The position numbers were made by a program, and so were the translations under genes. Positions 15,269-46,278 of a stretch of DNA of 64,000 nucleotides are shown in pieces; the stretch's first letter is position 1, and the number at the start of each line of letters is the position of its first letter. This stretch comes from Blepharisma japonicum (taxonomy: Eukaryota > Ciliophora > Heterotrichea > Heterotrichida > Blepharismidae), in assembly GCA_949751835.1 (NCBI GenBank), contig CATKHK010000009.1, forward strand, positions 248,001-312,000, read 5' to 3'. Under the pieces are notes generated by a model. The model did not search any database and was not told the origin of the DNA. It saw nothing but the letters and a program-made list of their open reading frames with translations.

Positions 15269-15387
15269 CATCCTACTTCAAGTTTAGCTTGGATGAAAAA
15301 AGTTTGGTTAAATTAGAATAGGCTTTCTTTCAAATGAATTTTTTATCCATAATTAGTATAAATATGAAAATATTAATTTTCTAATAG
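15269..15387 (+). pseudogene. Orphan 3' end of a second kelch-like gene
   Basis: Bases 15269-15387 align nearly colinearly with 12347-12464, the last codons and 3' flank of the kelch-like gene. The coding part still translates as SYFKFSLDEKSLVKLE then TAG (15319-15321), against SYFKFNLDEKNLIKLE in the intact gene. The changes are conservative, as if the copy had been under selection before losing its body. No further upstream coding sequence is recognisable. Its end overlaps the stop of the giant minus-strand gene. Confidence 0.8.
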
Positions 15388-18300
15388 TTTTCTCTATTGA
15401 TTGATATTGAACTATTTATAGAAGGAAAAGGATCTCTTTCATATGCTAAACTATTTTCACCTTCATTATTTAGAATGGATCCATTTTCAAATTCTTGTGA
15501 GCCATTGATTATGTGGCTGGCTGCAATACGTGTATAACTTAAATTTGCCTTTTTCTCATCTTTGCTTATACTATCATTCACTGTGTATACTTTAGATCGT
15601 GATTTTTTACATAAATTACTTTTCATCTGCATAAATTTCTCCTTGAGTGCTAGGAGAAATTTATTGAAGATTTTTAATAAGCTGTAAATAATAAACAAGA
15701 TATTTGAGCAAAATGTTATAAGAAATATCAAAAATGTACCAGAATCTCCTAATTCATCAGTCAAAAAGAAAAGACCAGTGAAAATTGTAACTAATGCTGC
15801 AGCTCTAGATGACAATTCCATCTTGTTTAAACACTTTTTCATGAATGGCTCATTTCTTTTTTGAAGAATAAGGAAAAAAATCAATAAAATTGCTGCTGCA
15901 AGGGCTTGAACAGAAATAGAGATATTTGATAAAAATACCGAAAAGCTGATTAATAGAATTTTGCAGTACAAAATAACAAACTCTCAATAAAAGCGTTTTG
16001 CATTATAGCCATTATAAAGAAAGCCATATTTCAATTTCACTGCAGTTTCTTCTAATTTGGCTCTATATTTTGCCAATTTTATTAGTCATATTGCTGGAAT
16101 TATAATTCCTCATATTAAGATCGCTGGCAAAGCCATTAGATAAGAATAAAACAAATGATCTTCAGTCCAGCACTGGATATCAAGATCAATATTTAGCCAA
16201 AATTCTCCAGAATTAATTTCTCTGCAACTATAAATACTAAATAGAGTTTCCATAATTCCTGGATGAATTAAAAATAGCACAATAATACTTGAAGAAATAA
16301 AATCATCAGAAAATAGTTTCCAAACATGTTTTCGGATTTTATAATATAATCCCCACAAAATGAAACATAAAATTCATAGCATTAATGGAACGAAACTGAT
16401 AAGGACAATCTTCATATAATAAACCTCTGTTTTAGAACTGGACGTCTGCAAAAAGCAATCAAAAGAAAATAATTGTTCACCCACATAGTTCATGCTTAAT
16501 TCTATATAAAAAAATTCCATCACTCATCGGGGCCAATTTAAATTGAAAGTCGTTATAATGATTATAATGTGCAGATAATTTCAAAATATTTTTATGTATA
16601 TTGGAGTAAAGCTTGATGATTCGAAAACATACTTTTTTGAAGCTTTTATTGTAAGTAAAGCAATAATAAAAAATACGCAAAAAAATCCAATCATCCTTGA
16701 AGTATTAATGGCTGAATCGAGACACACTTTACATTCATTTTTGTATAGCCTTGAATATCCATAAGCGCAAGATTGACACATATTACCTTTATATCCCTCT
16801 TTGCAAACCCCTGTGTATGATATATTATTTATGTCAGGAGACCCCAAACAAGCTGGAGGGTATGGGCATTCCCAAAAATGGTCAGTGTATTTATTATCTC
16901 TCCAATACCCATTATGAGGAACCATTGTGTAATTTCCATAACAAGTAGCATGCTTGGGACAAGACAAACAAGCACGGTTACTAGGATTTAAACTGTAATA
17001 ATGCTCTTCACAAACTAAGCAAGTAATATTCACAGTTGCTTCTCCAAATGTGCATAATCTTAGATCAACATTTGCATAGAGAAATGAATTAGAGTGGGGA
17101 TTTCCACTTATTTCTTTAATAGCTGAAGTGAAAATTTTAATTTTAGTTGAGGATCCAGGCTTTGCTGTGATAACATAGTCATTGAAACTAAAGACTCCTT
17201 TTACAGCTGTAGTCATAGTCACTCCAAAAAGGATCGTATCAGAATTTACATTCAGCATCTGAGCCTGGCTAACGTTATCAGTTTTAACGATTTGATTATA
17301 ATGATCAACTAATGCAAATGACATTGGCTTGCTATTTCTCTGTCCAGATGCAATTCCACTAATGATTGGAGATTCTAATATTCGGTTTGGCGGATTGTTT
17401 CTCATCTCCTCATATATGATCATAATTGGAAATGAAGCAAGATCATTTCCATATGTAGCAGAGTTACTATGAAAAGAGTTATTATAAAGTATCGGCTCAG
17501 TTTTTGTCCAACTTATTGCTCCTCCATTATTTATTGCTTGATTTCTACTAAAAATGTTAAATGGCAAGTTAAACAAACAATTGCCTAAATCTTTACAGCT
17601 AAGCTTAATTGCTCCTCCCATACCATCAATCACTCGATTATCGTTAGTTTCTAGTCCTGAAGAGTTTGCAAAATTTTTCCTAAACTCAGAAGAATAAATA
17701 CTCAAATTTATATTTTCAGAGAAAATGGCTCCTCCATTATAAGATGTATTATTTTCGAATTGCGAAGAAGATATCAAATATTTATCCGTAGGAAAATCTA
17801 GATCAGCCACAAGATGGATTGCCCCTCCAGAACCTAATGCAAAATTATTAATAAATGAGCAAGAATCTAGTATTAATGACCAACATTTTTGGCAATATAT
17901 AGCACCTCCATTCAATCCAGAAGCTCCTCTAAACTCTGTTCTGCTTATTTCAATTGACTGAAGTCTGTCCCCAGATATAGAACTTGCTGATGGATTTTTA
18001 AATAAGGAATTATCAATAAAAATAAAACTTTCATAGGATTGAATGTCGGAGCCTTTAGAGTTTACAAATGTTGTATCGTTTATCCATAAATAACTTTCTT
18101 CATAAATAAATATAGATCCTCCATTATTTGAAGTTAAATCAGAAAAAAAAGAATTGAAAATAGAAATATTGCTTGAAATAGAAAATATGGCAGCTCCGGT
18201 ACTTGTGCTTAAACCATTTGAAAACTTCGAATTTCGGATAAAAGCACTGCTCTTGGATTTAAGCTGGATAAAGGATCCTTGGCTTCCTAATTGATCTGAA

Positions 18301-21300
18301 AAAGTCGTATTTTCTATTGTAGCATTAGAAAATGTCAGCAGAATTCCTGGGTTATCTTCACTTCCAATGTTTTTATAAATTGTTGATGAATCTAATGTTA
18401 TGGCTGATGATAGAAGATATAGTGTACCTCCATTTAATGATTGATTTTCACTGATTTCACAGTTTATTATTTCTGAAATTTTATCTCAGCATTGAATTAT
18501 ATTAAAAGCAGAACCTCTTCCATTGCAAGAATTTTTTATTACTTTTGAATCTTTCATAGTAAAAGATGAATCTGAGTCAGCATAAATAACACCTCCTACA
18601 TTATGGGCTGTGTTTTCTCTGAACTCACATGAAGTACAGCTAAAATAAGAGTTATAGCTTAATACAGCAATCCCACCATTCATTGTGCTTGTGTTATTAT
18701 AAAATTTTGTGTTTCTAAATTGTGCTCTAGCTGAGTTTTTAATTGCTAGACTTGTTCCAGACCGCTCTGAATGTCCATGCTGAAACACTGAGCCATTCTC
18801 TATAAGAGTAGAATTATCAAGAGAAAAAACTGAGCCTAAGTTATACTCAAATAGGCAATTATTTGTTTCAATTAACGATTTTTTCCTTTCATCATCCATT
18901 AAAATGATTGTTGATCCTGAATTTTTTTGAAAAATGCATGAATTTAAACTTATTTTTGATGAAATTGCTGTAGAGTCTTCACTAATGGATATATGGAATG
19001 TTGAGCTATATAATCCCTTATTTTCAATAAATTTTGAGTTGTCTATAGACAGTGCTCCATCAGAATAGAAAAGTGAAAAAGAGGCCGAGAGCAATGCATT
19101 ATTTGTTTGGAATGTGCAGTTATTGATTAATGAGCCTTTTTGCAGCTTTATGAAATCGTCAATATAGATGCAGGCACCACTGAAAGCCTTATTTTCATAA
19201 AAATTCGTGTCATGAATTGATAAGGATGTTTTGATGTTTGAATAAAATTTTTTATTCATATATATTGACCCACCATTGAGAAGGCAAGAATTATTTCGGA
19301 ATAATGTATTTGAAATTGAAAATTCTGAGCTGTCATTTACAGTTGGTAGTAATAAGTAATAAATTGCTCCTCCAGATAATCCTGGCGACTGGTTTGATAT
19401 AAATTGGCAGTTATTGATAAGCAGATTTTGGCCTGAAAAATATAAAGCACCTCCTAAATCAGCACTGTTCTCTTTAAAAGTGCAATTTTCTAATGTTAGA
19501 GCACTATTGCTCGAGAACTCGACCGCTCCTGAATATCCACTTAAATAGTTTTTGTTGCCAATAAATTCTGAGTTTGTGATAGATACTGATAAGCTTTTTT
19601 GAAATGACAAGCAGACTCCAGAAGTACCTCTTCCTATATTCCGCTTTGAGTGTAAATAGTTAATTATGGTTGCTTTAGTATTATTAATGACTATTGCAGG
19701 TGATGAGTTCTCACAATAATTATCAGAAATGTTTATGTTATTCATGGAAAGATTAACTGAATCGCTGATTAAGGATATTGATTTGCAAGAAAAATTCAAT
19801 ACGTTTGATGCTTCTAACTTCAAATAGATGTCTGGATTATTTATATAACTTTTCAAAATTATTGAATTAAGATTCTTTTTTTCGTTTAAATTGCCCCCAT
19901 TTCCAATTATTTTTATATCTTTTATTTCTATATTTGCCATTTGTTCTATTCCTATTAAGCCTGAGCCTCCAGAATAGTTGTCTGTAAAAGTCAGGTTTTT
20001 GATTGCTATTCAACTAGGCAAAACTCTTACAGGTACTGCTATGCCACTTGGAGTTATTCCACTTATATTTTTTCCATTAATAAATTGATCTTGCATGGAT
20101 TGACTCAAAATTGATATCAAACTACTCTGTTCATCACCATTTGATATAAAACTTGAAGACTCAATCAGAAAATTTTGGGTTTCGTTGAAATAATTAGCAG
20201 ACAATATTCCATCTGTTTTCCCATAATTCGATAAAAACTTAGTATTTTTTATATGCACATGAGCAAATGTTGAATAATTAAAGACTTGATTTTTGTCAAA
20301 ATCAATGGAATAATAGCTATTAGTATTTTTTATATTGATAATTCCTAACTCGCAGTAATTATATGAAAATGTGCAGGTGTCAATCTCTAATTTTTCGAAT
20401 CATCCAAGATTTATTAAAGATGCTGAGTTCAGGATATTCAAAGAATTCTGATATATCATATTATATTCAAATTCCACATTTTTGATTACTACAGAAGTAA
20501 TATTAGGTGCATATAAAAACCCTCTTAAATTAATCGGGTCCCCAAATTCATAACCATTATTCAGTCTCCTTACTTTACCTAGACTGTAATAAAGTCTTGC
20601 AGGAAACTGCTTACAAAAATCTTGATAAGTGTAAAGAATAACTGCAGATACCTCCTCTTCTGATAGTTTAATATTATCAAATGTTACATTCTTTAAAATA
20701 ATATTGCTACCGCATGAAGCTCTTATTATTGCTGCATTTCCAAACCGATAGTTTTGCACTGTTACATTGTTCAAGGTTAAATTACTATTTATCAAATAGA
20801 ATAAAAGTGCTCTTCTATATTGCATACACCTAGATGAAGGCAAATATTCAGAAATTTTTTCGTGACGGTCATTATAGTACTCTGCTGGTGAATCTGAGCT
20901 AGTATAAACCACAGGGCAATAATCGCAATATATGCTGCTATTGCAAGTAAGAAAAGCTTTCCCTTCCAATATGATATTGCGAAATTCTATCACAGAGTCC
21001 GTTGCATAAGCTAATATACTGTGTGAATCTTGTATATGTATTGTTACCCTGCTTGAGTTTCAAGGAGTGAATATAAGATTACTCGCTTTTATTCTATCGT
21101 TTAGCATCCCTAGATGTAAGCTGTAATAATAAACGAACTCCCAATCTATATCGTAAATCCCATCATCCAAAAGATAGATCACTGCATTGGCTGCTCGATT
21201 AAAGTATAAAGGCAGGATGAAGTGTCTATAAGGATTTTGAGCTGTTCCATAACCTTCAAAAAAGTTGGTAGTATTTAATGCTGATAAAAAATATATATGT

Positions 21301-22619
21301 GGATTTTTCGCTGTTGAAATATCATCTGGCTTATATGCAACTAAGGATCCATCAGGGAAGTGCCATCGAATATATCCTGGTGATGAATAACATTGACCGT
21401 TTTTTAAAAACACAGTTTTGCAAGATAAACAGTTTTGTGTGTCATTTTCCTTATAAAATCTTGCACAATCATCATCCTCAGAAGGTTCGGAATTGCAGTT
21501 CCCATTTGCGTAATTGCACTCTGCTATATTACATTCTTGAAAACAGTTTGTCATATCTATAACTTTTTCATAAGAGCAAGCATAGCTCGAAGCTATATAA
21601 CAGTCTTCTAGGTGAGATATATATTGAAAATTTTCTTGTATAATTTGCTGATATGAAGAAAAAATTGCTAAAGAGGTATTTTGGCACCACAAGTTTTCGT
21701 ATTGGTTTAATTTGTCATAATTGCATGGAGCTACTAGGCATTCTGGTTTGCATTTCCCATAATCGAGATATGTGCAGCCTTCAGAGCACTGACAATCTTT
21801 ATAATCATATTCACAGTTATAATTGTTGCATTCACGATTGCAAATTCCATTTCCTAGCATATCTGGAAAGCATCCACTGGCGCATGCTCCACAATCATGA
21901 CCATCCAATGTGCAATTTCAATTATTGCACACTTCATCACATTTTCCATCCCCAAGCATTGACTCAAAACATCCTGGATAGCAGTCACAATCAAAATTAT
22001 CAAAATTACATTCAGCAACATGGCAGGCTTCTTCACAAATAGAATTTCCTACCATTCAAATATAGCAGCCAGGAGCACATGTTAAATTTTTACAGTCGCC
22101 TAAATCGAAATTGCATTCAGAGTAAGCACATTCAGAATCGCAAACTCCATTTCCTAATAATTCCTCTGAGCATCCTGTGTGACAATTTTTACAAGATCCA
22201 AGCCCGTAATAGCATGACGTGACATTGCAATTGGAATTGCAATCTTCTGCCAAATTTTTGCTATTGCCTAAATATGGCTTACATAAAGGTGCACAATCCC
22301 CACAATCTCCCCAATCATACCCACAACTTTTAGTATTACAAAAATCATCGCAAGTCCCATCTCCGAGTTTCTCTTTTTTGCAGCCGTCTACATAAATGCA
22401 ATTTCAATAGCAATCTGATTTTTCTTTATCATCTAAAGCATTAGTTAAGGTTCTTGCATCATAATTACAGTACGACGTCATGCAAGCTGGGTCACATTGG
22501 CCATTTCCTTGCTAATTAAAATTTACTTTAGCGTCTGGACAGTCTAGGAGGCTACAGATCAATTTTTCACTCGCAGAAACCTTAGCAAGAATTCAAAAAA
22601 CAAAAGCAAAGCCAATCAT
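15381..22619 (-). CDS. Giant LNR / Pmp beta-helix / multi-TM surface protein 1 (subtype A)
   Basis: 2402 aa after removal of two 15-nt introns; many TGA codons are Trp. Order: signal peptide (MIGFAFVFWILAKVSA); about nine Lin-12/Notch-type cysteine repeats (pattern LGNGVCDSECAYSECNFD, then LGDC) to about residue 360; a serine/asparagine-rich stretch to about residue 1850 packed with Pmp-type GGAI and FxxN repeats, predicting a long right-handed beta-helix; a Cys-rich module (CLSCPKHATCYGNYTMVP, GYWRDN, CQSCAYGYSR); about eight or nine membrane segments from about residue 1960; and a cytoplasmic tail of about 90 residues. The ATG at 22617-22619 gives a clean signal peptide. It is a paralogue of the next three genes and closest to gene 3 in the LNR block. 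A surface receptor or adhesin is inferred; the ligand is unknown. Confidence 0.9.
22268..22282 (-). other. 15-nt intron, conserved position 2, giant gene 1
   Basis: GTAAGCCATATTTAG. It has no stop in frame and a multiple of three bases, so it could be mistaken for coding. Alignment with the paralogues shows it is an intron inside an LNR repeat, splitting a Cys codon. Confidence 0.8.
22512..22526 (-). other. 15-nt intron, conserved position 1, giant gene 1
   Basis: GTAAATTTTAATTAG just after LLDCPDAK. Its TAG would otherwise end the frame. Confidence 0.88.
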
Positions 22620-23399
22620 TTATTTTATTAAAATTATATTTAAATGCTTGCAATTTGTGACTATTTAACTATTTAATGGTAATTACATCTGCAACTTTAG
22701 ACAAAATAAAAGAAGATCGTCAAATTATTTTTTTAAAAGGCACTGCGCTTATTTTCCATTCGATTAGAAAAAGTTAAATTTATATTTAATTCTTTTTAAA
22801 TGCTCACATATTACTTAATGTCTTTTAAATTCCTTTTTCTTAAAAATCCAAATTTAAGGTTTTTATTAAGAATATGAGAAGTGAGTATATAATTACATTT
22901 ATTGAAGTTTTGAGCATCAGACATTTTGCTTATTCTTAATAGCTTGCATTGTGTATATAAAATAACACTCCTTTAAATAAACTGAAGAATTAATAGAATA
23001 AAACACAATTAACAATAATTAGTTTTAAATAAAAAACTAAAGCCAGCATTGAATGATCCAGCTTATTCAATAATTCACTTTTCTACTATGAGAAACTATT
23101 TTTGTTGTAATTTCTTTATTACTTTAAATTATCAATATATTTTAAATAGCAAAACTTAATACAAAAGCTCTGCAACGATAAGAGTTTGAGCTTTATAAAT
23201 ATATTCGGTACAAATGTAATTTTTATATTGACTATCTATACTATATATAGCGGAGAACTCAATTATTTATACGTAAATAAGTTTACTATCTCTCTGACTG
23301 TAGCCAAATTTGCCTCAGTCAAATACTAAAGCTCCTATAGATATATTCAGGAGCTTTTTCGATAAAGAAATCATAAATGAGATTGTAAAAAATTAAAAT
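22620..23399. other. Intergenic region with two similar hairpins
   Basis: No coding frame recognised. Two inverted repeats are visible: aaagctc (23164-23170) with gagcttt (23188-23194), and aaagctcct (23328-23336) with aggagcttt (23349-23357). They lie between giant gene 1 and the PiggyBac remnant. Confidence 0.5.
23328..23357. repeat. Nine-base inverted repeat (hairpin)
   Basis: aaagctcct and aggagcttt flank a 12-base loop. A related seven-base version lies at 23164-23194. It could be a transposon-end relic linked to the adjacent PiggyBac remnant, or a transcription-related hairpin. The basis is only the visible palindrome. Confidence 0.5.
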
Positions 23400-24190
23400 T
23401 CATATGCAGAAATGCTGTCAAAAGCAAATCCAAAGTAAACAGCAAGAATAAAAGATATGATACCAATCACAAGAAGAGGATTTGAAAAATGACTTGAGAT
23501 AGTTATTATGATGGACCTAATAAGAGCTCCAAACAAACCGATTACTGATCAACTGTGCCTCTTTATCATAATAAGTAATTTCTCGGATAATGAAATCTAG
23601 AAGATTCCAAGCAATAAATCGAATGCTTTACATATCATCTTATCAAGATTTTTAAGGATAGCCAGCTATCAAAATTAGAGTCTCTACTTTCAATGATCTG
23701 TGAAAAGTGCAAAGTTAATTTTTCTCTTGGAAAATTTATTTCTATTGATGAGTCAATGATAAGTTCATAGGCCGACATCGAGCAGTACAATATATGCCAG
23801 CTAAATCCATAAAATGAGGCTTCAAAGTATTTTCCCTTTTCAATTCAAATACAGGATATGTGTTAAACTTTGATATATATCCAGGTAAAACACAAAGCAA
23901 TAAGTATTCAGCTATTGGGGGTCTTGCACAAGCTTATTGAAAAGTTTATAAGAAAACTCAAACAGATATTGTTTGTTTTTTGATCGTTGATACTCTAGTA
24001 TTGATATGTTTACTTCCCTTTCAAATATGGGCTTTGCATTAACTGGAACAGTAAATAAGAACAGAAAAGACTACCAATAAGCCACATCATCAAAAGATGT
24101 AAAACGCAATTCTTTTTGAAAGGAGATTTGCTCTATGTGCCTAATATGATAAGAGACCAATATTTTGATTATCAAATATAGAGGGAACTT
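23400..24190 (+). pseudogene. Decayed PiggyBac-family transposase
   Basis: Plus strand, broken by several frameshifts and stops. Recognisable PiggyBac pieces come in the right order: TRRGFEKWLEIVIMMDLIRA with NKPITDQ; SIDESMI (about 23744-23758), the conserved block around the first catalytic Asp; GRHRAVQYMPAKSIKWGFKV; GYVLNFDIYPGKTQ; and TGTVNKNRKDYQ (about 24043-24080). In the KSIKWGFKV block the Trp, strongly conserved in PiggyBac proteins, is encoded by TGA, so the copy evolved under this organism's code. PiggyBac-derived enzymes excise DNA during macronuclear development in several ciliates. This copy cannot make a full protein. Confidence 0.82.
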
Positions 24191-24253: not shown

Positions 24254-27200
24254 TTAGCTATTTAGAATGTCTTTATCAGTTATGATCTCAAAATTTATGT
24301 TTTCAACGTTTGACTGACTTCCTTCTGCATTCCCATCGTTTAGACTATTTTCGATTTTTTTATCAAATACTTGAGAACTGCCCATATCAATTTCTTTCTT
24401 TAAATCTTCAATATCTGGGTCGTTAGAAACCTTGCTAATGCTTTTCCATATCTTTGCACGCTTATATATGTAGCACAATACTGCCTTAAATACATTGAAA
24501 AATCAATAAACCAGAAAATAGCAATTAGCAGTCATTATGAGTATAAAAAAGAATAAACTGGCATCATAGCCAAGAGATCCAGTTAAATAAAATAATCCAC
24601 TATATATTGTTATAACACATACTATTTTTGCTTGCAATTCCATGCTATTTAAGCTTGGCTCGATATAGGGTCTATTAGAATATTGAAGCTGTAAAAATAT
24701 TGATAAAAGTATTGCAGCAATGAGTGCTTGCACCTTCAGAGCTATATTTGTTAAGAAAACTGAACAGCAAATTAAAATAATCTTGCTGTAAATAATAATA
24801 AATTCTCAATAGTAGCGTGTTAATTGATACCCATTAAATAGGAAGCCAAAACGGAGTCTTACATTAAGCTCTTTCAAATGATTTCTACTTTTTATAAGAG
24901 CAAATAAACAAATAGTTGGCAATAAAATTCCCCAAACAATAATAGAGGGCAATGAAACAACAAGAATATAAAAGATATGGTCATCACTTCAGCATCTAAC
25001 ATCAAGGTCTTCTTCTAATCAGTACTCTCCATAATTAATTTCAGTACAATTAAACGAAGCAAACATTTTTTTCACAATACTTGGGTGTACTAAAAATAAA
25101 AGGATAATACATGTAGAAATATAATCATCTCAAAAGTTCTTAAATGATTTTTTTCTCAATTTGATTATAATTCAAATAATCAAAGCTAAAATGGCCATGA
25201 AAGCAGGTAGCAAGGAAATAAGAATGAGACTCTTATAGTAAAGCAAATCTCTTGAGCTTTCTTGCTGCAAAATGCACTCAAAAGAATATAGCTGCTGGTA
25301 AACATAATCTGTACTTGATTGAACTTGAAATATTTCTAAAACTTCTTTAGGCCAATTCAGCTTAAAAGTAGAAGTCAGTATGACCATCTGCATGTAATTC
25401 AGCAATATTTTAATATAGATAGATGTTAGTTTTTTCGGCCTAAATGCGGATTTTATAGTTGTTTTTACCATAATATAGGCTAATGCTGCCAACGCAATAC
25501 AAATTCCTATTGTAATTGCTAAATTCTTTGCAAATGGAGGGCATTCTTTGCATTTATTATTATTTGCGCGCGAAAAGCCACTTTGGCATGATTGGCACAT
25601 ATTACCTTTGTAGCCTGTCTTGCATAAGCCAATATAAGATAAATTTTTTTGATCAGGGGAACCTAGGCAGGCATTGTAATTTGGACATTTTCAAAATTTA
25701 TCTGTATAAACATTATCTCTCCAATATCCTTGCTTTGGAGTCATTGTATAGTTGCCATAACATTCTGCTGAGTCAGGACAGGCTAAGCATTGAGTTTTAC
25801 TTGGATCTAAGCTATAATAGCCATATCCACAAACCTCACAGTTTTTACCAGCCTTTATTTCACCAAGTTCGCAATCTCTCAAATTAATTTTAATCAGCAA
25901 ATTTTGGTCAAAAATTGTATCATTTGTTTGCAGCTTTTTATAATTATCGATGGCTGAGGAAAATACTTCAATAGTCACATTAATTCCTGGCTCATCTGAA
26001 ATTTCGTACTGAGAAAAAGTGAAAATTCCTTTTACTGCTTTAACTTTGGTGACTCCTGTGATAATTGTGCTCACATTTTTTGATTTTAATTCCCCAAGAT
26101 TAGCATTATCTGTGGCTACTATTTGATTCATACTATCTACCAGTGCGACTTTTATGGTTTTGTTATTATCTTGTCCAGGTGCAAAGGATGATAAATTGAA
26201 GACTGATATGGGGCTTTCAGTTAAGCGTCTATTGCTTGCATAGCCTTCCAAAGTTCCATTTTCATTTACACTCATGAGTTTTACTGGGTATGAGGAATAT
26301 TCATTCCCATATATAGCATAATTATTAAAAAAATAATTTTCCTCAAGATTTGGCTTTCAATCATCTCAATTGATAGCTCCTCCGTTATAAGTTGCAATGT
26401 TTCCGGTAAAGTTACATGATATAATTTCGAATTTACACTGGGAAATTCCTAAACAACTCACTTTGATAGCTCCTCCAATACCTTTCATAATTTGTGAATC
26501 AATATAACTTTCATTTGTTAATGCCTTATTTTCAATAAAACTTGTGGTAGATATAGATAAGCTTAAATCGTTTGCATATAACGCACCACCAATAGGAGCT
26601 AAATTTCTAATAAAAGAATTCATGTATATTTGATATGTATTCGTCTCAGACGTTTCTACGTCACTTTCGAGATATAATGCACCTCCAGCGCTTGATGCTT
26701 CGTTATCTTGGAATAAGCAAGTATTAATTTTGACATTACTGCAAGAGAAACAGTAGACTCCACCTCCATATGCTCCACTGCCATTGCTGAAAGTTGAGTA
26801 GGAGATATCTAATCCTTTCAAATAGCTACCATATACTCCAGATTTTACGTAGTCATTAAATATTGAATTTACTATGACAGTTGGAGTTATAAATACATAA
26901 ATTGCTCCTCCTGAATCCAAGGTTCTTGACACTGATATTTTGCTCTCTTTTATCAGCAAGGAATTATCAAATCATGAATAAATAAATCCTCCCGGTTTGA
27001 CAGAAGAAAACTGATTAAACTCTGATTTTTCAATTCTTATATTGCTTGATGATGAATATATTGCTCCTCCTGAGTCACTTGAATTTCCATTAGAAAATAA
27101 TGAATTATTTATATTTGCGCTGCTATCAGCTGATAAATTAATAAAGCAGCCTTGAGTGCACGATTGATTAAAAAAATTGCTGTTCAATATGTCCACAGCT

Positions 27201-30200: not shown

Positions 30201-31402
30201 GGAGCTATTCCTAAGCCTTCAGTTGAGCTTGTGCACTGCTCACACAGATTTCAGGCAGATTTCGGGAGAGATGATTTGCAATCAGTATTAGAATTTGTGT
30301 TGCATAGCCCATAATTGCATTCAGGAATGAAGCAATCTGAATGGCATTCGCTTTGATCAAGAGCCATGGCTATATTGCATTTATTGTTTGAAGCCGAAAG
30401 GCATTTATCAGGATTTATCACAGAGCTTGTGTCATTTAGACGCATTTGCTGGTAAACTGTAAATAAAACTAAGTCTTTATCCATGCATCATTTATTAGAG
30501 TCAGCGCTCATTCTATCATATTTGCAAGTTCCAACTAAGCACTCAGGTTTGCACTTGCCATAATCACTTGTGCTGCATCCATTAGCACACCCACAAGCAT
30601 AATAATCCCATTCACAATTCTCTGTGTTGCATTCAGGGTCACATATATCATTTGCTAGCATTTTATGAGTGCACCCTGAATTGCAGTATCCACAGTCTCC
30701 ACTATCAAACATGCAGCTCAAAGTGTTGCAGACTTCATCACAAACTCCATTTTTTAAAAGATCAGTAGAACAAAACGGTGCACAAGTGCAGTCAGTTTTG
30801 TCATATTCACATTCAGGGACATAGCAGACTTCATCACAAATGGAGTTGCCAACCATCCAAGTATTACAACCTGGAGCACAAGTTGAGTTTGTACAGTCAC
30901 CCATATCAAAATTGCAATCAACATTATTGCAGACTTCATCACAAATTCCATTTCCTCAAATATTTGTATTACATCCAGCAGAGCACTCTCTGCAGGCTCC
31001 CATGTCATAATAGCATTCAGGGACATTGCATTCTTCATCACAAGTTCCTCCTAGTTGATTTTTGTTACCTAAATTATATTTACATGAATTTCCGCAATAG
31101 CTGCAATCACCTAAATCATACCCACAATAAGGAATATTGCACATCTCATCACAGATTCCATTCCCTAAAATTTCTTGATTGCATAAATTCAGGCATTTGA
31201 TATTGCAATCCGATGTAAACCCTTTTCTATCATTTAATAAAATATAAGCATCAAAATTACAAAAAGAGTTCATGCAATTAACATCGCAAATCCCATCTCC
31301 TCTCTATTTTTGAATTACTTTCAATTCAGAACACTTATTTATATTGCATCTGTTATCTACTGCCCGCACTGCTGACAACATGACAAATAAAAAGAGAGCC
31401 AT
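24254..31402 (-). CDS. Giant LNR / Pmp beta-helix / multi-TM surface protein 2 (subtype B)
   Basis: 2372 aa after removing introns at 31304-31318 and 31069-31083. It has a signal peptide MALFLFVMLSAVRA. LNR repeats cover roughly residues 28-330 (for example CAPGCNTWMVGNSICDEVC). The beta-helix runs to about residue 1780 with repeats such as NFTSNSADYGGAIYIA. The Cys-rich module holds CPDSAECYGNYTMTPKQGYW. Membrane segments start near residue 1940, including the motif SIYIKILLNYLQMVILTSTF with NWP. The tail ends TDKDILNS. The LNR block and tail-side membrane sequence (QALIAAILLSIFLQLQ) match gene 4 best. The start of gene 3's minus-strand 3' end lies only 197 bases upstream, so the promoter must be short or lie in the neighbour. 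Confidence 0.9.
31069..31083 (-). other. 15-nt intron, conserved position 2, giant gene 2
   Basis: GTAAATATAATTTAG, stopless and in frame. Recognised by alignment with giant gene 4, where the intron at the same place contains a stop. Confidence 0.8.
31304..31318 (-). other. 15-nt intron, conserved position 1, giant gene 2
   Basis: GTAATTCAAAAATAG after NKCSELK, restoring the frame into RGDGICDVNC. Confidence 0.88.
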
Positions 31403-34500: not shown

Positions 34501-37500
34501 AGTATTCAATATATTTATTTTGGAATCCTGAAGAATCAGCCCAGGATGATCTCCATTCGCTGTATTTTTGTTTATAATAGATGAATTTATCTCAATTTCT
34601 GAAGATAAAACAGAAATTGATCCAGTATCTAATGAATGGTTTTCACTGATTTCGCAATTCTGTATTGTGGACTTTTTGGAAGCCATGATGATCTTTAAAG
34701 CTGAGCCTTCGTCTTTGCATGAATTTTTTAAAAATTTAGAATCTTTTATTTCAATATGTGTGCTAGCATAGATTGAGCCTCCAGATCCATTTGCTTTATT
34801 TTCGATAAAATCGCATGATGAGCATGAAAATTCAGAACTTTCGCTTACAAAGATAGCTCCTCCATTTAGCTCACTGGTATTGTTTATATATTTTGTATTC
34901 ACTGAGCTCGTTTTTACTGAATTTTTCATCATAATTGCTGCCCCGGGAGATGATGAGTATCCATGCTGAAAAATCGAATTACTGTCAGTCAGGATAGTAT
35001 TATAAAGATAAAAAGCTGTTCCCCTATTATACTCAAATAAACAGCTATCTGTTTCCAAGCTAATATCTTTGCCTGAATCAATCAGAACGGTTGATGCTCC
35101 AGTATTATACTGAAAGCTGCATTGATTTAAGTTTATTTTTCTGTTGGTATTCTTGTCATTATATATATGAAGAGATGAGCAGGTTTTTCCTTTATTTTCA
35201 ATGAATTTAGTATTGTTAAAGAGAAGGGCGGTATTAATGTTTTGAATATAAAATGCGCCTGATTCAGTTGCCAAGTTATTATGAAATATAGAGTCTATTA
35301 TTTGAGTGTCCTCTGATAACTTTATTGATTCATCAAAATAAACGGCAGCTCCATACGAGGCATTATTATCTGAAAAAATTATATTTGTAATTGAAACAGA
35401 TACAATTGAGCTTGAAGAGGATTTTTGAGAGATAAATACAGCTCCGCCATTTTTTGAGCACGAATTATTGCGAAACACTGTATTAGAAAGAGATAATTCT
35501 TCATTTGACTCTTTAGAGGCGAGTGATAAATAAAGAGCTCCTCCGGATAAACCAGAAATTCAATTAGACTCAAATTTGCAGTTACCAATATTGATATTAA
35601 AGCCTGAAAAATAAACTGCACCTCCTATATCTGCAGAATTCCCGATAAATGTGGAGTTTATAAGTGTTAAATTCTTCACTTGCATTGCAAAATCAATTAC
35701 TCCTATCCCACCTTGCAAATTATTTTTATTTCAGCTGAATTCTGAATTGCTGATAGTAATGGCTTTAAGGAAACGAAATACTAGGCAAATTCCATTTGTG
35801 CTAGTAGCATTATTTTCTTTAAAGTATAAATAATCTAAAGTAATGTTTTCTAAAGTAGCAATTTGTATGGCAGGAGATGAAAATTTACAGTAATTATTCG
35901 TGATATTTAAATGCTTCATCGTAAAATTAAATGATTCTGATATTGATGATAATGAATAGCATAGCAAATTCTGGGGGGAAGAGGCTTCTGCTTTTAAATA
36001 AATATAAGGGTTCTCGATAAAATAGTTTAACAGTATGGAATTAAAATCATTAATGCCGTTTGGAGATCCACCATTTCTATCCATTTGAGTGTTGGAAATT
36101 TCTATATTAGCCATTCTGGATATTTTAATTAATCCTACATCTCCCGAGAAATTATTGATAAATTTAGAGTTTTGGACCTTTAGTCAATTAGCTAAATATT
36201 TGGCGGGAGCAGTAATTCCTGAAGATGTTGTGACTTCTACATCCATATCATTAACAACTAAATACTCTTCATCATCATCCCAGATATAAATTAAGCCATT
36301 ATTTTCAGCCCCATTTGCTTCAAACGATGTTGAATTTATAAGAATATTTTGAGCTGTTCCTTCAAAATGGATAGTAATCAAGCCATTGTTTTTCACATAA
36401 TTTGATAAAAAATTTGACTTCATAATCTGAATGTGGCTTAATGCTGAATATTTTACTATTCCTTTACTATTAGCTTCCATTATAGGATAAGTTTCATCAT
36501 TTTGAATATTTATCACTCCCAATTCACAATAGTTATATGAAAACGTGCATGATTCAATTTCTAATTTTTGAAACAGCAAAAGAGTAAGTAAAGATGCTGT
36601 GTCTATATAGTCAGAGTAGTATTTATAAACTAAGTTATATTCGAATTTCACGTCTTTAATAGCTATAGAAATAATATTTTTCGCATATAAAAACCCTCTA
36701 AAACTTAATGGATCATTAAATTCATATCCATTATTTAAACGACTAACTTTTCCAATTTCATAATGAAATGAGCTGCTGCAAACATCTTCTGCACTATCCC
36801 GACAAGTATTTTCTAAGTAAATAGCAGCTGCTTCCTCTTTATTTGCAAGCCAAATATTATCGAAAGTCACATTATACAGCATAACGCTGCTATTATATCC
36901 TGCTCTAATAATTGCATTAAATCCCATCCTGAAACTAATAAAACTTACATTTCTCAAAATCAAACTACCTTCATAAACATCAATAAAGTAATCATTACGA
37001 AATCCCCAACAAAATTCCATGTCAACATAGCTCCATATTTCTTCCCCTCTATCATTTACATATCAGGTGCTGGAGCTACTATCTTCTCTGACATAAGGAC
37101 AATATTCGCAATATTCTGTGTCTTCACATTCTCTGAATTTTCCATCAAAAATTACATTATTGATTTCCAAAACTCCATTATAAACACTCAAAGGTCAATA
37201 GTTTTCATAATCAGTGATCCCATAAACCATTACATTTCCACCATTAAGCGTCGTTATTTTTAGATATAATTTATCTTTTCTACGTTCTATGAACTGTTGG
37301 TATCTTCCTTCGCTTCATTCATTTTTTCTTAAACCTTGGTAATCTCCATCTTCTTTAAGGTAAATAACTGAGTAATTGTAGTTTGAATATTTTACAGCTG
37401 AGTTTAGATCTTGGTATGGGGAGAGAAAGGTTCCATCACCACTTCAAATATAGTCATTGAAAAAAGAGGTGACAAAATAGATATAAGGGTTTTTCAGGGT

Positions 37501-38802
37501 GGATCTATCTTCAGAAAAAATCTTAACTAACGACGCATCAGGAGAAATGATAATGTCTGAGTCTAGATTTGACATGCATTCCCCTAAAATTAAAGCATAT
37601 GTCCCACAAGACATGCATTTCCCAAGGCTACCATCTCCGTAAGCTCTTGAGCAGTCAGGGTCTTCAGATCCTCCAGAGTTGCAATTTCCATTTGAATAGT
37701 TGCATTCCATGATATTGCATTCTTCATAACAAGTTGATAAATCAAAAACTTTTGCTTGAGTGCAAGCATTATTTGAAGCGCTGTAACAATCTTCTAAATG
37801 AGCTACATATGTGAAATCTTTACGCATATTTTGCTGATATGAGGAATATATCATTAAAGAAGTATCCTGACATTGAAAATCAATATATTGGCTTAATCTA
37901 TCATAATTGCATGAAGCCACAAGACATTCAGGCTTGCATTGTCCATATTCTAAATAATTGCAGCCCTCAGCACACTGACAATCTTTGTAGTCATAATAGC
38001 AGTCATAATTATTGCATTCAGAGTCACAAAGTCCGTTGCTTAGCATTTCAGGAAAGCATCCACTAGCACATGTTCCACAATCGTGATTATCTAATGTGCA
38101 ATCTCAATTATTACATTCATCATCGCATTTTCCATCCCCAAGCATAGATTCAAAACATCCTGGAGAACAGTCACAGTCAAAATTATCAAAATTACATTCA
38201 GCTACATGACATGCTTCCTCACATATTGAATTTCCAACCATTCAGATATAGCAACCTGGTGCACAGGTTGAAGTACTGCAATCTCCTAAATCAAAATTGC
38301 ATTCTGAGTGGGCACATTCAGGATTACAAACTCCATTACCTAATAAACTCGGAGAGCAGCCTGTGTAGCATTCTTTGCAAGTTCCAAGACCATAGTAGCA
38401 AGAAGGCTCATTGCAATTTGAATTGCAATTTTGGTGTACTTCAATATCTCCACCTGTATAAAATTTACATGAAGGTGCACACTGGCCGCAGTCTCCTCAA
38501 TCATAGCCACAATTCTTTGTGTTGCAGCTTTCATCGCAGGACCCATTTCCAAGATCTTCTTGATTGCAACCATCTATGTAGAGGCAATTTCAATAGCAAT
38601 CTGAACTTTCTTTATCAGTTGTCCCGCTTTTATGAACGTTGGTGTCATAATTGCAGTATGAAGTCATACATTCAGGATTGCATATATTATCTCCTTTCTG
38701 AATAAAAATTACCTTAAAATCAGGACATTCCCGCAAGTTACACAACAATTTTTCACATTGAGAATACCACAAAAGTAAACTGAAATATAAAAGAAACTCC
38801 AT
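31600..38802 (-). CDS. Giant LNR / Pmp beta-helix / multi-TM surface protein 3 (subtype A)
   Basis: 2390 aa after removing introns at 38698-38712 and 38454-38468. The ATG at 38800-38802 starts a signal peptide (MEFLLYFSLLLWYSQC). The LNR block closely follows gene 1: both read MTSYCNYD early and share the CFESMLGDGKCD repeat and the YxDYKDCQC repeat. The beta-helix spans about residues 550-1800 with units such as FRNNSCSKNGGAVFIS and IFKKNSAENNGGAINW. Cys module: CLPCPDHAICYGNYSMVPKP and CHSCQDGYARLYKNKC. About eight or nine membrane segments follow, then a tail ending ADPCPSLN; gene 1 has the like ERDPFPSIN near its end. A ligand-binding or adhesive surface protein is inferred. Confidence 0.9.
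38454..38468 (-). other. 15-nt intron, conserved position 2, giant gene 3
   Basis: GTAAATTTTATACAG, stopless and in frame; same site as in the other three paralogues. Confidence 0.8.
38698..38712 (-). other. 15-nt intron, conserved position 1, giant gene 3
   Basis: GTAATTTTTATTCAG, stopless and in frame. Assigned by position relative to the other paralogues. Confidence 0.82.
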
Positions 38803-39030
38803 GATCAATTAATATTAAAATCTAATAGATTTTTTAATTTTAATGTTTTTAAAGTTATAAAATTCTGATGTGCTTTTGACTAATTATAAATTTAAAGAAA
38901 TAATTATGAATTAAATTTTAAATATGGCTAATGAATTAAAGATAAGCCTAATAAAATTTATTTATATTTTTATTTAAAGATAAGAACAAATTAACTATTT
39001 TTCTGGCTTTTGGCTTGCTAACATATCAAT

Positions 39031-42000
39031 TTATTTATAAGATTTTATAATGTGGTCATTTTCTGCTTTTTCTTCATTGTTTAAATTGTAGTCACTTCTT
39101 ACATCAATATCCTGATGTTCAACTCCAAGCTGATGCTCAATAGAAGGGTATAAGCCAATAATTTTTTCAGGGAGAGCTTTCATCTCGCTAAAGCTTTCTT
39201 TGTGCAACTCATACGATTCTTGATCATAAGAAACTTTCATTTTGCCTCTCCATTGCAAGATCTTTTCTTGAGCTGCAAAAAATATTTCTTTAAGCATATG
39301 GATTCCTCAATGAATCAAAAAGAAAAGATGAGCAATAATTATGAGTGCATAAAAAAATAAGATTTGGTCGTTATTCAATGAATCTGTCAAGTAAAATAAC
39401 CCACTGTAAATTATAGTAGTGCACACAAGTTTAGCCCTAAATTCCATTACATTCAAGCTAGGCTGTGAATAAGGATTGTTGGAAAATTGTAACTGTAAGT
39501 ACACTGATAATAAGATTGATGCAATGAGTGCTTGCAGCTTAATAGCAATGCTTGTTAAAAATACTGAGCAGCAAATCAATAGCAATTTGTTATATAAAAT
39601 AATAAATTCCCAGTAATAGTAATTTGTCTCATACCCATTCAAAAGAAATCCATACCTTATCTTAACATTCAGGCAATTCAAATTATTTTTCTTTCTTATC
39701 AAGTCTGCCAAACAAATGGCAGGAAGCAATAAACCCCATACAACAAGAGCTGGTAAAGCAACTGCAAGTGCATACATTTTATGATCATGATTTCAGCATT
39801 TTATATCGAGATTCTCCTCCAGTCAATATTCTCCTGCATTAATTTCTGTGCATCTAAACGCAGAAAACATTTTTCTCAAAACGCTTGGGTATACTAAAAA
39901 TATCAAAATAATGCAGCTTGACATATATTTATCCCAAAAGTGCTTAACTGGTCTTTTAACTGAAATTATGATAATTCATAGCATTCCTGCTAATAATATC
40001 ATTACAGCTGGAATAATGGCAACCATAATAAGACTTGCAAAATAAACACTATCTTGAGATTTGTCTTTAAATAGACATTCAAATGAAAATATTTGCTGAT
40101 AAATATAATCAAGGGAAATTTGAGCATAAAATAAATCCAATACTTCGCTTGGCCAATTCAGGTTAAAAGTAGATGTGATAACTATCATTTGTAAGTAATT
40201 TATAAAGATTTTGATATAAATGGAGGATACAGGTTTTGGCTTTAAGGATGATTTTATTGAAGTTTTATACATGATAAATGCGACAGTAAGAAGAGCAAGA
40301 ATGATTATTATCATTATAAGAATATTGCTTGATGAATCAGGGCATTTTTTACATTTGTTATTGTTTTCATGTGAATAGCCAGATTCGCATGATTGGCATT
40401 TGTTTCCTTTATATCCTTCACTGCATCATCCTGTATATGAAATATTTGATGGATCCGGAGACCCCAAGCATGCAGAAGGGTTTGGGCATTTCCAAAATTT
40501 ATTTGAATACATATTGTTTCTTCAATGTTTAGATTTGGGAACCATAGTAAAGTTTCCTAAACAAACAGCTTCATCAGGACAAGATAAACATTCTCTTTGG
40601 TTTAAGCCAAAACTATAATATCCATCCTTACAAACTTCGCAACTATTTCCAGAATTTACTTCTCCTATTTCACAATTTCTTAAATTTACATTGATAAATA
40701 GATTTTGACTTGTTTGATTACTGTAATTCTTACTGCTAATAGCTGTAGAATAAACCTTTATTATGACCTTTTGTCCAGGGACATCTGATATTGTTAAATC
40801 TGAAAAGTTATAAATTCCTCCGTTTGCTTGGACTACAGTAGTTCCAGCCATGACAGAGCTTGAATTTTCAGCTTTCAGCTCACAGACGCTGGAATCATCA
40901 GTGATCACTATCTGATTCATGTGATCAACCACTGCAATTAGCAAAGATTGCGAGCTTTTTTGGCCTGGAACTAAGCCTAGTACATTTGTGCTTCCTTGTG
41001 ATCCATCGCCTAGCTCTCTGTGCTTACTTAATGTGCCATTTTCATTAATTATCAACAATTTCTCAGGATATGAAGCATAATTTTCCCCATACTGTGCATA
41101 GTTATCTATATAAGTGTTATTTTCTAATTCTGGAGGCCAATCATCAAAGCTTATAGCTCCTCCACTATATGAAGCTCGATTTTCAGTGAAATTACACAAA
41201 CTAAAGCCAAACTCACATTTTGAGCCATCAGGGCAGCTGATTTTGACTGCACCTCCCATTCCTTTTACCTTCTCATTTCCCTCTAATATTTCATTCGTAA
41301 TTGCTTTATTTCTTAAGAAAACAGATGAAGATACATACAAACTTGCATCTCCTGAAAGCACAGCCCCACCATTTTCAGCGTTATTATCAATAAATGTAGT
41401 TCCATCAATAAAATAAGTTTTTTCGATATTTTCATCCATATCTGTGCCAAAATACAGTGCTCCTCCTAAGCTTGCACTATTATTTAAGAATTCCGACGAT
41501 CCAATTTTGATATCTTTACAAGAATTGCAATAAACTGCTCCACCTAAAACTCCATTTCCATTGCTAAATGAAGATCCAGAAATTTCAAGTTTTTCTAAAT
41601 GAAATCCATATATTCCTGACTGTGAATAATTATCGAAAATTGAATTTTCTATAGAGCACGGAGTTTCGTAAGCATTAATGACTCCACCCAAATTGTGACT
41701 ATAAGAAGAAAGGAATTTAGAATTTTTTATATTCAAAAAGTTATCAAAATTTGAATAAATTGAGCCTCCATCTGATTGTGAATAAATATTTTTAAAGGAT
41801 GATGATTCAATTGTAATACTACTTGATAAAGAAAATATTGCTCCGCCAGAGCTAGTTGAATTAGCATTTATAAAATTGCAGTTTTTTATATTAGTGTTGC
41901 AATCGGATGACAAATGAATGAAACATCCCTCAGTGCAATTTTGATTAGAAAAATCTGAATTAGATATTTCTAAATCAGAAAAGAATAATTCGATGCCTCC

Positions 42001-45000
42001 TTTATTTTTTGAAATGTTAGATGATGATATAGAAAGCTTAGAATTAGCTAAAGAAATTGTGTTTCCATTTTGGGGGTTATTTTCATGGATTTCGCAGGTA
42101 TTTATTGACAATGTTTCAATTAAGTTATCTCCATATATGATTGAGCAGTCATTTTCGCATGAATTGTTGAGGATTTTTGAATTTGAAAAGGAAATCTTAT
42201 ACGCGTGTTTTGCAGATACAACTCCTTCTGCTCGAGCTTTATTATTTGCAAGATTACAAAAGCTGCAATAAAATGAGCAATTAGTGTTCAATAAAATAAC
42301 TCCACCTTCTTGAGCCTCATTATTTTTAACATCGCAAGTGCTGCAAGAAAATGAAGAATTATTTTCCAATGTAAATACTCCTCCATTTTTAAAACTAATA
42401 TTATCAGAGTAGGTGCTTGATTTTGATGTTATCACTGCAGAGTTTTGTAAGTGAAAACATGGCCCATCTATTGCTTTATTGGACTTAAAACTTGAGCCCT
42501 CATCTACTAGCTGATCGTTGTTTAATGAAATTATAAGTCCTCTGTTGTTCTCAAATACACATTTTTTAGTCTCAATATAAGTAATACTATTTTGATTATC
42601 TGCAAGTATAACAGAGCTTCCTATGTTATTTTTGAACGTGCATGAATCAAAAGAGACCTTTGAATCTGAAGCATTCATTTGAATAACAGAGTTTAATTTT
42701 GCTGAGTTGCTTAGAAAATCGCATGAATGATAAATAATTGATCCCTTATTGCAAAATTGAAGAATAGTACTTGACATTATTGAATCATTTTCTTGAAAAT
42801 TTGAAGATGCGATCATAGAACCTTCTCCTAGTACAACGTTACTATCAATATACAATGCTGAGCCATTCGAAGCCTTGTTTATTCTAAAATCAGAGCTATC
42901 AATTAAGATGTTTATATTTGCTGGCCATAATTCTTGTTGTGCTAAATAAACGCTTCCTCCAATTAATGCAGAATTATTATTGAACGTGCATCCAGTCAGC
43001 TCTAATAAGCCTGCTTCATTATCAGCAGTCATTAAGTTAAATATTGCCCCCCCGTACCCATTTGGAGACAAATTTGAATCGAAAATTGATGAGGAAATTG
43101 TCGCATTTTTACCATAAGCATAAATTGCAGCACCATTATTAGCTGTATTATTTATGAAGCTGCAGTTATTTATTAAGAGTTTTGAGTAGTCTTGAATCAG
43201 TATTGTTCCATTTCCCTCATAGCTATATCTGTTATTAGCAAATGTTGAATTGGTAAATGTTCGATCAAAATTACCTGAAAAAATAAAGCAAGGAGGCTGC
43301 TGAGTGTTAGCAATATTTGACGTACAATTCACTAAGACCATTTCGTGAGTATCTGATTCTAAAACTTTGAACGTAGGAGACGAATTTCTGCAAAAATTAT
43401 TTGAAAGGGTTACTGGAGCTATTTCAACACTATATGAGCTTTCTACTGAAACCATGAATTCACAGTCAATTGATGCTGGATGATCCACATTTCTAGATAT
43501 ATATAAATTTCTTTCATCTCTATTTTGTATGAAAAAATCAAGAAGAATTGTATTGAAATTATCATCTTCATCAGGTGATCCATTGGACTCGATAATTAAA
43601 TTTTTTAGTTCATAATTAGTCATACTTGTTGTATCAATCATCCCATTTCCATAATTATTTTCAAAAGTTAAATCATTTAATTTGCAGTATCTTGGCCCAT
43701 AAATGATCTTATCCGTATGTCCATTTGAATAAACGCTTTGTATCGTCTCTGTTTTATATTCATCTAATATAAGAGCATTTTTAATCTTTATTAGAGACTC
43801 AGATTCAACACCATTCAGCTCAAAATTAGAATTTTCTATTCTAACATTCAAAAGGCGGTCAGAAAAATCAATATTAATAAAAGAAGAGTTCCCATAGTTC
43901 GAAATGAATTTTGAGTCGTGAATATATATATGATCTTTATATAAATATGATAAATAATTTGTCTCATTTACAGATTCAGGGTACTTTGAAATATCTAAAG
44001 GTAAATTAAACAACCCATTTTCACAATAATTGTACATAAAAGTGCAGTTATTGATTTCTAAAGTGTTCACATTAGATACATAAAATAAGGAAGCCTGAGT
44101 CAGATAGCTATATGGAGACAGATATACTAAATTATGCTTGAACTCTACATCTTTTATATATACAAATTCCGAGTTCTGATAATATAGAAAACCTCTGAAA
44201 TCTACGGGATCTCCAAACTCATAGCCATTATTCAATCTAGTCACTGATCCTTTTACATATATTAACTTTGAACTGTAATAGTAATTATGAGGCATCGAAA
44301 TCACTGCAGAATTTTCTGCTGCTTTAAGCCAAATATTATCAAAATCGACATTGAACAGCTTTATAATTCCAGGGCCACCTAAAATGCAATTATACTGGCT
44401 GCGAAAATTAACGAACTTTACATTTCTGAATGTAATCTCGCAAACATCACAAGCACTGTAATACCCGTAACATTCTCCGCATCGAATTGGTGCAAAAGTT
44501 TCTAATCAGTTATACGAGTCAGCTAATGAATTGCACCATCAGCTTTGATCTTCTTTGGTTAATTTCTCTCCTCTATCATTATAAAAATACATATCACTTG
44601 TATTACGAGTTGCATATGGACAATAGCTGCAATAGTCTGAGTCAGAGCATGGATACATGCTGTAACCATCAAAAATCAAGTTCTCCCATTCAAATTTTCC
44701 ATAAATTTGGAAGCTGTCTATTCAAATTGCATTGATTTTTACAAAAATTTGGCTGCTGTCGAAAGGCAAGACTTTTCACCATTGATTTTTTTGATAGGTT
44801 GAGTAAGGCCATCAGCCACCAAAGCTGAGGGTATAATTGCCATCATTAATTAAAAAAAGCACATTTTGAGTGGTAGTTACTGTCTGCAATGCATAATCTA
44901 AGGTTTGGTAAGGGTTATTATAGCTTCCATCACCTGAAGGAGAATAACCATTCATATTAGATGTTGCATAGTAAATAGAAAGATGAGGAAAATTCGTTGA

Positions 45001-46278
45001 AATTTTGCTAATTGTTAGAGAAAGGTCATATAAATATAAATAATTGCAAGAACTTGAGCATTGAGAGCAAGATGTTCCTAAACCTGAGTAGCTAGTTGTA
45101 CAAAATTTGCAGAGATTAGAAGCAGAACTGGGAAGAGTGCTCATACAAGTGCTATAAGAAGAGGTACCGCATAATCCGTAGTTGCATTCAGGGATAAAAC
45201 ATTCTTGATGGCAGGTTGTTGTGTCAAGAGCCTTTTCTAAAGTGCATTGAGAATTAGATGCAGAATAGCATTGATCAACAGAAACGACATAATTTGGATC
45301 ATTTTTTATCATTTGTTGATAAATAGTAAATAACACTAAATTTTGATTATTGCACCACTTTGAAGAATCTGAGCTCATTTGATCATAATTGCAGGTTCCA
45401 ACTAAGCATTCAGGTTTACACTTTCCATAATCGCTAACACTGCACCCATCAGCACACCCACAGGTATAGTAATCTCATTCACAATCTTTTGTATTGCAAT
45501 TAAAGTCGCATACATCATTTGCCAGCATTTTAATTGAGCATCCTGAAGAGCAATGCCCACAGTCTCCATTATCATATTTACAGTCCAAAGTATTACACTC
45601 TTCATTGCATACTCCATCTCCTAGAATAGTTTCATAACAAAAAGGTGCACAAGTACAGTCAGTTTTATCGTATTGGCATTCTTCAACATAGCAAGCTTCA
45701 TCGCATACGCCATCTCCAACCATTCAAGTCTTACAATTGGCTGCACAAGTTTTATTTACACAATCTCCCATATCAAAATTACAATCAGCAACGTTGCATA
45801 CATCATCACATATTCCATTTCCTCAATTATCAGAATTGCACCCAGCAGAGCATTCTTTGCAAGCTCCCATGTCGTAATAGCACTCAGGAACATTACAGCC
45901 TTCATCGCAAGTCCCTCCTAATTGGGCTTGAGTGCCTAAATGTTATTTACATGAAGACCCGCAATAGCTGCAATCACCCCAATCATAGCCACAATATGAA
46001 TTGTTGCAATCATCATCACACTTTCCATCTTTCAATTCAAATGACCAGCAATTTGTCTCAAGCAAGCAATCTCAGAGGCAGTCTGAGTTCCAAAGTGTAA
46101 AATGAGCATCATCAGTAGCTCCAGTGTCATATTTGCATGGCAATGTATAGCAGTCTGGATTGCATGTTCCATCACCTCGCTAAATGGATATTACAATGCT
46201 TTTAGGGCATTTAGATGTATTGCATAGTATTTCAAGTGCTTCATATAAACAAAGTAGAATTGATAAAAAGATCAGCAT
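39031..46278 (-). CDS. Giant LNR / Pmp beta-helix / multi-TM surface protein 4 (subtype B)
   Basis: 2405 aa after removing introns at 46180-46194 and 45936-45950. Signal peptide MLIFLSILLCLYEALE. LNR repeats cover about residues 29-300, including CAPFCYETILGDGVCNEEC and an incomplete one near the start. A second cysteine patch contains HQECFIPECNYGLC. The beta-helix is the longest unbroken stretch (for example KFLNNSASLGGALYF-like units EFLNNSASLGGALYF). Cys module: CLSCPDEAVCLGNFTMVPKS and CQSCESGYSHENNNKC. About nine membrane segments include SIYIKIFINYLQMIVITSTF with NWP. The tail is acidic near its end. It is the first gene of the array in the direction of transcription and pairs with gene 2 in sequence. 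Confidence 0.9.
45936..45950 (-). other. 15-nt intron, conserved position 2, giant gene 4
   Basis: GTAAATAACATTTAG. It carries a TAA in frame, and its removal rejoins CGSSC to TQAQLGG. Confidence 0.88.
46180..46194 (-). other. 15-nt intron, conserved position 1, giant gene 4
   Basis: GTAATATCCATTTAG after KCPKSI, with a stop in frame. Confidence 0.88.

Follow-up and report, generated by a model that had tools for sequence, protein, structure and literature searches.

Surface-protein genes in tandem arrays are common in protists and are often near copies of one another. Notch receptors are single-pass proteins with EGF repeats, chlamydial Pmp proteins carry a C-terminal autotransporter barrel, and the pectin-lyase fold is a right-handed beta-helix. 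In Tetrahymena, MTA and MTB are described as large, Cys-rich proteins with multiple transmembrane (TM) segments, encoded by a gene pair and acting in one complex (PMC10901506). The receptor of Blepharisma gamone 1 is termed putative (PMC10892320).

We analyzed a window of 64,000 nucleotides (C9:248001-312000) from a 45.2 Mb Blepharisma assembly of 224 contigs, which was also the genome searched for relatives. The window holds an array of four large genes, g1 to g4. Like MTA and MTB of Tetrahymena thermophila, as these are described, the array genes are neighbours, and their products are two kinds of large protein that have a Cys-rich stretch and are predicted to be anchored in the membrane by several helices (PMC3608545, PMC10901506). 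A tandem array of pairs is described in the Tetrahymena germline as well (PMC3608545, PMC10901506), a likeness that is drawn by description only. There are also differences from the published descriptions: the Tetrahymena pair is head to head, whereas g1-g4 are all head to tail; five helices are given for the Tetrahymena proteins, compared to about nine, by estimate, in the window proteins; and the Tetrahymena somatic genome retains a single pair, whereas the Blepharisma assembly contains many complete copies. The window proteins may also resemble Tetrahymena MRC2 (mating-type recognition complex), for which eight TM helices and a pectin-lyase fold are described (PMC10901506); this comparison is again by description only, and that description mentions no LNR head (PMC10901506), which the window proteins have.

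The initial annotation had placed four genes of about 7.2 kb head to tail on one strand, and our limits for the array (15381-46278) are identical. All four genes are intact, measure 7.1-7.2 kb each and lie on the minus strand: g1 (15381..22619; 2402 aa), g2 (24254..31402; 2372 aa), g3 (31600..38802; 2390 aa) and g4 (39031..46278; 2405 aa). Genes g1 and g3 are of subtype A and g2 and g4 of subtype B, which gives the order g4(B), g3(A), g2(B), g1(A), or B-A-B-A, in the sense of transcription. The intergenic gaps are 228 nt (g4-g3), 197 nt (g3-g2) and 1634 nt (g2-g1). UGA is read as Trp in the array genes, and each gene carries two 15-nt GT..AG introns at common positions; g1, for example, is open under this code once its two introns are removed. 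After splicing, each of the four reads through as a single frame of 2372-2405 codons, in which UGA occurs 14-16 times, and closes with one terminal stop. Removal of intron 1 eliminates an in-frame stop in g1 (22512..22526, minus strand, at a position common to all four genes), g2 (31304..31318, minus) and g4 (46180..46194, minus), as does removal of intron 2 in g4 (45936..45950, minus). Intron 1 of g3 (38698..38712, minus) contains no stop and was assigned from the common position, as were intron 2 of g1 (22268..22282, minus, GT..AG), g2 (31069..31083, minus, GT..AG) and g3 (38454..38468, minus). The repeat CCCTAACA occurs in runs in the assembly: its three-unit pattern gave 165 matches compared to 0 for the reversed control, and among the matches listed the plus-strand places lie no more than 430 bases from contig starts. 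UGA as Trp, 15-nt introns and runs of CCCTAACA all agree with what is described for the Blepharisma stoltei somatic genome (PMC9942806) and lend good support to an origin in Blepharisma.

The large gap between g2 and g1 holds a decayed remnant of a piggyBac-type transposase (23306..24189, plus strand), which lies outside the two-gene unit discussed below and is 69-91% identical to six other places in the genome. An open piece of the remnant (23719-24039) matches PF13843 (E 4.6e-06), which we take to be a piggyBac-type domain. A class I (Cys) tRNA-synthetase-like gene (47611-49443, minus strand) adjoins the array and has no second match in the genome. On the other side, a 280-aa open reading frame (11557-12396, plus strand) belongs to a very large family of at least 139 matches (best 138 of 1030 candidates scored); several family matches lie near contig starts, and a Kelch_4 match is at the cut-off. 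We considered whether the C9 array had been copied onto contig C11 together with its flanks. The sole informative flank, the unique tRNA-synthetase-like gene, gave no support for such copying, and the 280-aa frame is uninformative on the question because its family is so large.

The four proteins share one layout: LNR repeats come first, followed by a middle that resembles a beta-helix, then a Cys-rich stretch and finally a C-terminal part with hydrophobic peaks. The N-terminus is hydrophobic in all four by eye and passes the hydropathy threshold in three (not g3). As in Notch receptors, LNR repeats (PF00066) are present, scoring above the Pfam cut-off at the N-terminus of all four window proteins. 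Unlike Notch, the window proteins gave no EGF match in whole-protein scans and have several hydrophobic segments rather than one. In the middle region, Pmp-type repeats (Chlam_PMP, PF02415) like those of the chlamydial proteins were above the cut-off in g1 only; g2 fell under the cut-off and g3 and g4 had no listed match. Beta_helix (PF13229) was above the cut-off in g3 only, and beta-helix-type Pfam models in g2 and g4 remained under theirs. The window proteins differ from Pmp in that no autotransporter-barrel match was found, and several predicted C-terminal membrane helices stand in its place.

The C-terminal domain of g1 (15672..17063, minus strand) comprises a Cys-rich stretch followed by several hydrophobic segments, and those of g2 (24506..25882), g3 (31891..33270) and g4 (39310..40683), all on the minus strand, have the same layout. 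The domain is homologous over its full length, g2-g4 being 44-50% identical to g1. Hydropathy gave 7, 9, 11 and 11 peaks per domain, or about nine segments by eye; some peaks overlap, and the helix number is therefore an estimate. Among solved structures, the Cys-rich part matched ephrin receptors weakly (best E 0.008), Ephrin_rec_like was just above its cut-off in one of the four proteins (g4), and in g2 and g4 the Cys-rich part gave a sub-threshold EGF_laminin match. Across the Cys-rich and membrane part, DUF7630 fell under its cut-off in all four proteins, and the membrane part of g1-g4 matched no named family among solved structures and Pfam. Outer LNRs and a putative beta-helix, joined to numerous hydrophobic segments, would fit a receptor or adhesin at the cell surface, a role predicted from sequence features. 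Such a protein would act as a recognition receptor or adhesin of the plasma membrane, with an outer LNR head on a long right-handed beta-helix; below the helix, a Cys-rich collar would lead into about nine membrane-spanning helices, and a short tail would lie in the cytosol.

Comparison of the four genes confirmed that g1 and g3, and likewise g2 and g4, belong to two subtypes, A and B. Whole-protein identity was 48% for g1-g3 and 50% for g2-g4, compared to 36-39% for the four cross pairs. Alignment columns that divide the four genes two and two favoured the grouping 13|24 over 12|34 and 14|23 by 162/25/30 in the whole protein, a count in which g3 retained its second intron (5 residues). By block, the counts in the same order were 45/3/5 in the LNR head, 10/4/4 in the linker, 16/1/4 and 51/7/9 in beta-helix parts A and B, and 33/6/5 in the TM part. 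The signal peptide (2/2/0), Cys block (3/2/2) and tail (2/0/1) had too few such columns to decide, because these blocks are too short or too conserved. No block of the protein favoured a grouping of neighbours. Pairing of neighbours was set aside, as 12|34 accounted for only 25 of the 217 two:two columns and a clade of g1 and g2, the neighbour pair examined, was rejected (p-AU 0.0005).

Phylogenetic trees extended this result beyond the window. A search of the assembly with the g1 C-terminal domain gave at least 93 matches, at least 73 near full length and at least 20 partial; these counts are lower bounds, since only the best candidates were scored. Near full length was defined as at least 445 of 464 residues, and one such copy has an internal TAA. 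Trees were built from 45 of the 73 near-full-length copies, namely the four window genes and 41 rows from among the remaining 69. The tree of the C-terminal domain recovered an A clade of 19 (support 100/100), which includes g1 and g3, and a B clade of 13 (100/99), which includes g2 and g4; g3 and g4 are on long branches. The tree of the 500 residues before the C-terminal domain, in the beta-helix part, gave clades of the same sizes (A 100/99, B 100/99), and a 13-row tree of the LNR head again split A from B (100/100 each), with the A genes of C9 and C11 unresolved. The initial annotation had proposed comparison of trees by domain, and all three domains thus agree on A and B. The two subtypes are sisters (100/99) when rooted on a C42 paralogue, although the root depends on this single distant row (branch 1.94). 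In the C-terminal domain, eight columns distinguish the two subtypes at 90%; we considered these class-specific residues as pointers to an interface and set them aside, as 8 columns are too few without a model. The subtype motifs quoted in the initial annotation were found where it placed them, and the alternation of two subtypes that it described along the array is real, as identity, two:two columns and trees all attest.

A and B genes occur mixed on six contigs. The A clade consists of g1, g3, two C11 genes, and 15 genes on C131, C137, C150, C198, C98 and C1; the B clade consists of g2, g4, one C11 gene and 10 genes on C131, C137, C150, C198 and C32. Both clades split into a C9/C11 group and the rest. 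Within A, the C9/C11 group received support of 97/96 in the C-terminal tree, 93/93 in the beta-helix part and 97/97 in a joint 20-row tree. Within B, it was weak in the C-terminal tree (87/63, or 88/76 when C42-rooted) whereas the beta-helix part gave it 99/97 and the joint 20-row tree 99/98. Among the matches listed, the closest relatives of g1 and g2 in the C-terminal domain were on C11: C11:314380 for g1 (83%) and C11:306415 for g2 (75%). The LNR heads also differ outside C9/C11. In 15 such heads of the A clade, the main match starts at g1 query position 158-167, and 11 of the 15 have a separate upstream match ending at 60-65. These A heads appear to be without about 100 residues that B heads keep, as read directly in L071 only.

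Several of these arrays are affected by contig ends. C131 and C198 start, and C150 and C198 end, in mid-gene inside array genes; the first 260 bases are nearly identical in C131 and C198 and the last 260 in C150 and C198 (by eye). Because these contigs are cut in array genes and have common ends, assembly may account in part for the order and number of genes seen on them, and C198 may not represent a separate array. Some copies are damaged. At C137:25240-26470 (L073), an A-gene LNR head is broken by a stretch with several stops, either a broken gene or a leftover insert. A decayed C-terminal copy with several stops (C131:52229-53297) lies between an A gene (49495) and a B gene (59225), and at C85:87901 (L060) stops lie upstream of an open C-terminal domain, reflecting a frameshift, an intron or a pseudogene.

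Along the six contigs, A and B alternated in 16 of 21 same-strand neighbour pairs, compared to a mean of 11.8 in within-array shuffles (P=0.018) and 10.2 in pooled shuffles (P=0.005). Pairing is not strict, because the C98 A gene and the C32 B gene have no adjoining partner among the matches listed and the other 5 of the 21 neighbour pairs are A-A or B-B. This imperfect alternation, with a within-array P of only 0.018, is in keeping with the idea that A and B each spread independently and came to alternate by chance. We consider such independent expansion quite improbable, as the A tree mirrors the B tree across the same arrays and another array, C85, forms a single clade of 5 rows. Mirroring was assessed by exact permutation over neighbour pairs of A and B genes. 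For A-then-B neighbours it was strong (8 pairs, r=0.91, P=0.0004) and persisted without C9/C11 (6 pairs, r=0.93, P=0.007); one of these pairs (C131:49495, 59225) spans a pseudogene. B-then-A neighbours also correlated overall (6 pairs, r=0.89, P=0.0097), and outside C9/C11 they did not (3 pairs, r=-0.13, P=0.5). All P values for mirroring and alternation are a guide only, since pairs and arrays are related by descent. Arrays other than the mixed A/B arrays did not offer a clean contrast, since genes of C93 interleave with C176 and those at C11:600-617 kb with C85 and C64 in the C-terminal and beta-helix trees.

The mirrored trees indicate that a two-gene unit was copied repeatedly. Outside C9/C11 the unit looks like A-then-B, on few pairs; in C9/C11 it may be either A-then-B or B-then-A. 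Genes g3 and g4, the earliest branches, adjoin, as they would if one unit were g4-g3 and the next g2-g1. In the 20-row data, an exclusive clade of g1 and g3 was rejected by 86 log-likelihood units (p-AU 2e-59) and one of g2 and g4 by 40 (p-AU 2e-5), because g1 and g2 have closer relatives on C11. The initial annotation had predicted a tree that pairs g1 with g3 and g2 with g4, arising by duplication of a two-gene unit. The A and B clades bear out the grouping, but C11 genes interleave and the pairs are not exclusive; similarly, duplication of the unit is upheld by the mirrored trees, but as an event that is older and wider than the window alone could reveal and not as one recent, local doubling of the window's own pair.

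Likeness within each subtype could also be produced by local gene conversion between g1 and g3 and between g2 and g4, and the high LNR identity (71% for g1-g3, 65% for g2-g4), over lower identity elsewhere, is in keeping with it. However, synonymous sites were near saturation throughout: pS was 0.57-0.84 in all 12 blocks for all six window pairs, none of the 12 blocks showed low pS, and the LNR blocks within subtype were at 0.63-0.69. Recent conversion is therefore disfavoured, and we regard conversion as an extremely improbable source of the likeness within subtypes. In close pairs, dN/dS was 0.11-0.37 in 14 of 14 (7 A, 5 B, 2 others). Near-saturated synonymous sites and low dN/dS together argue that selection, not gene conversion, keeps the members of a subtype alike. 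In all 14 pairs dN/dS in the beta-helix part exceeded that in the C-terminal domain; for dN itself this held in 10. Among the window genes, pN in the first 400 codons was 0.20-0.26 within subtype and 0.31-0.42 between, compared to overlapping ranges in the other ten blocks (0.26-0.51 within, 0.34-0.54 between). This gap, confined to the first 400 codons, shows that the LNR head keeps the subtypes apart most clearly, and the binding partners of A and B, or the sides of one partner that they bind, thus probably differ.

The explanation that we favour, and consider probable, is that the array consists of an old AB unit in two copies, formed by copying of blocks, held by purifying selection and encoding putative receptors. 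The data support a course in which one ancestral gene split into sister subtypes A and B, the two became neighbours, blocks with both types were copied several times to give the mixed arrays on six contigs, and purifying selection held both types. Copying may have proceeded by unequal crossing-over between tandem repeats, which would keep both types together automatically. Less surely, the many diverged copies may provide the cell with a varied set of recognition proteins. Recognition, mating included, is a fair working idea for the predicted role.

Heteromeric receptors of A and B, as the initial annotation suggested, are plausible. In a stricter form of this idea, A and B would assemble into an obligate heteromeric receptor, and both types would have stayed in the arrays because the pair was selected for. 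Such selection would be consistent with the mirrored trees and the similar purifying selection on both types, with the adjoining of a same-strand A gene by 10 of the 13 B genes (one across a pseudogene, as read from positions), and with the long branches of the neighbours g3 and g4, as partners changing together might show. The Tetrahymena MTA and MTB gene pair, described as acting as one complex (PMC10901506), is a precedent. Linkage predicts identical mirroring, however, and block duplication alone yields it, so that mirrored trees do not require A-B interaction; moreover, A genes outnumber B genes in the trees (19 to 13), the single genes on C98 and C32 have no partner among the matches listed, and A-A and B-B neighbours occur. 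We therefore think an obligate heteromer unlikely. More doubtful still is the fuller proposal of an obligate AB recognition receptor with its identity in the LNR heads, drawn from a co-evolving AB repertoire of which one or a few would be expressed per cell for self/non-self, mating or prey recognition. If true, the AB pairs would parallel the mating-type pair of Tetrahymena, but in head-to-tail arrangement and with a complete somatic set.

Under the favoured reading of repeated block copying, two sister subtypes that parted long ago have been copied jointly time after time, so that one genome now holds several AB pairs that differ in age. No paper on the gene family appeared among the open-licence PMC papers listed. 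The AB pairs make it possible to ask, in a natural setting, whether paralogues inherited together also function together, and the AB genes are candidates for the cell-recognition receptors of Blepharisma.
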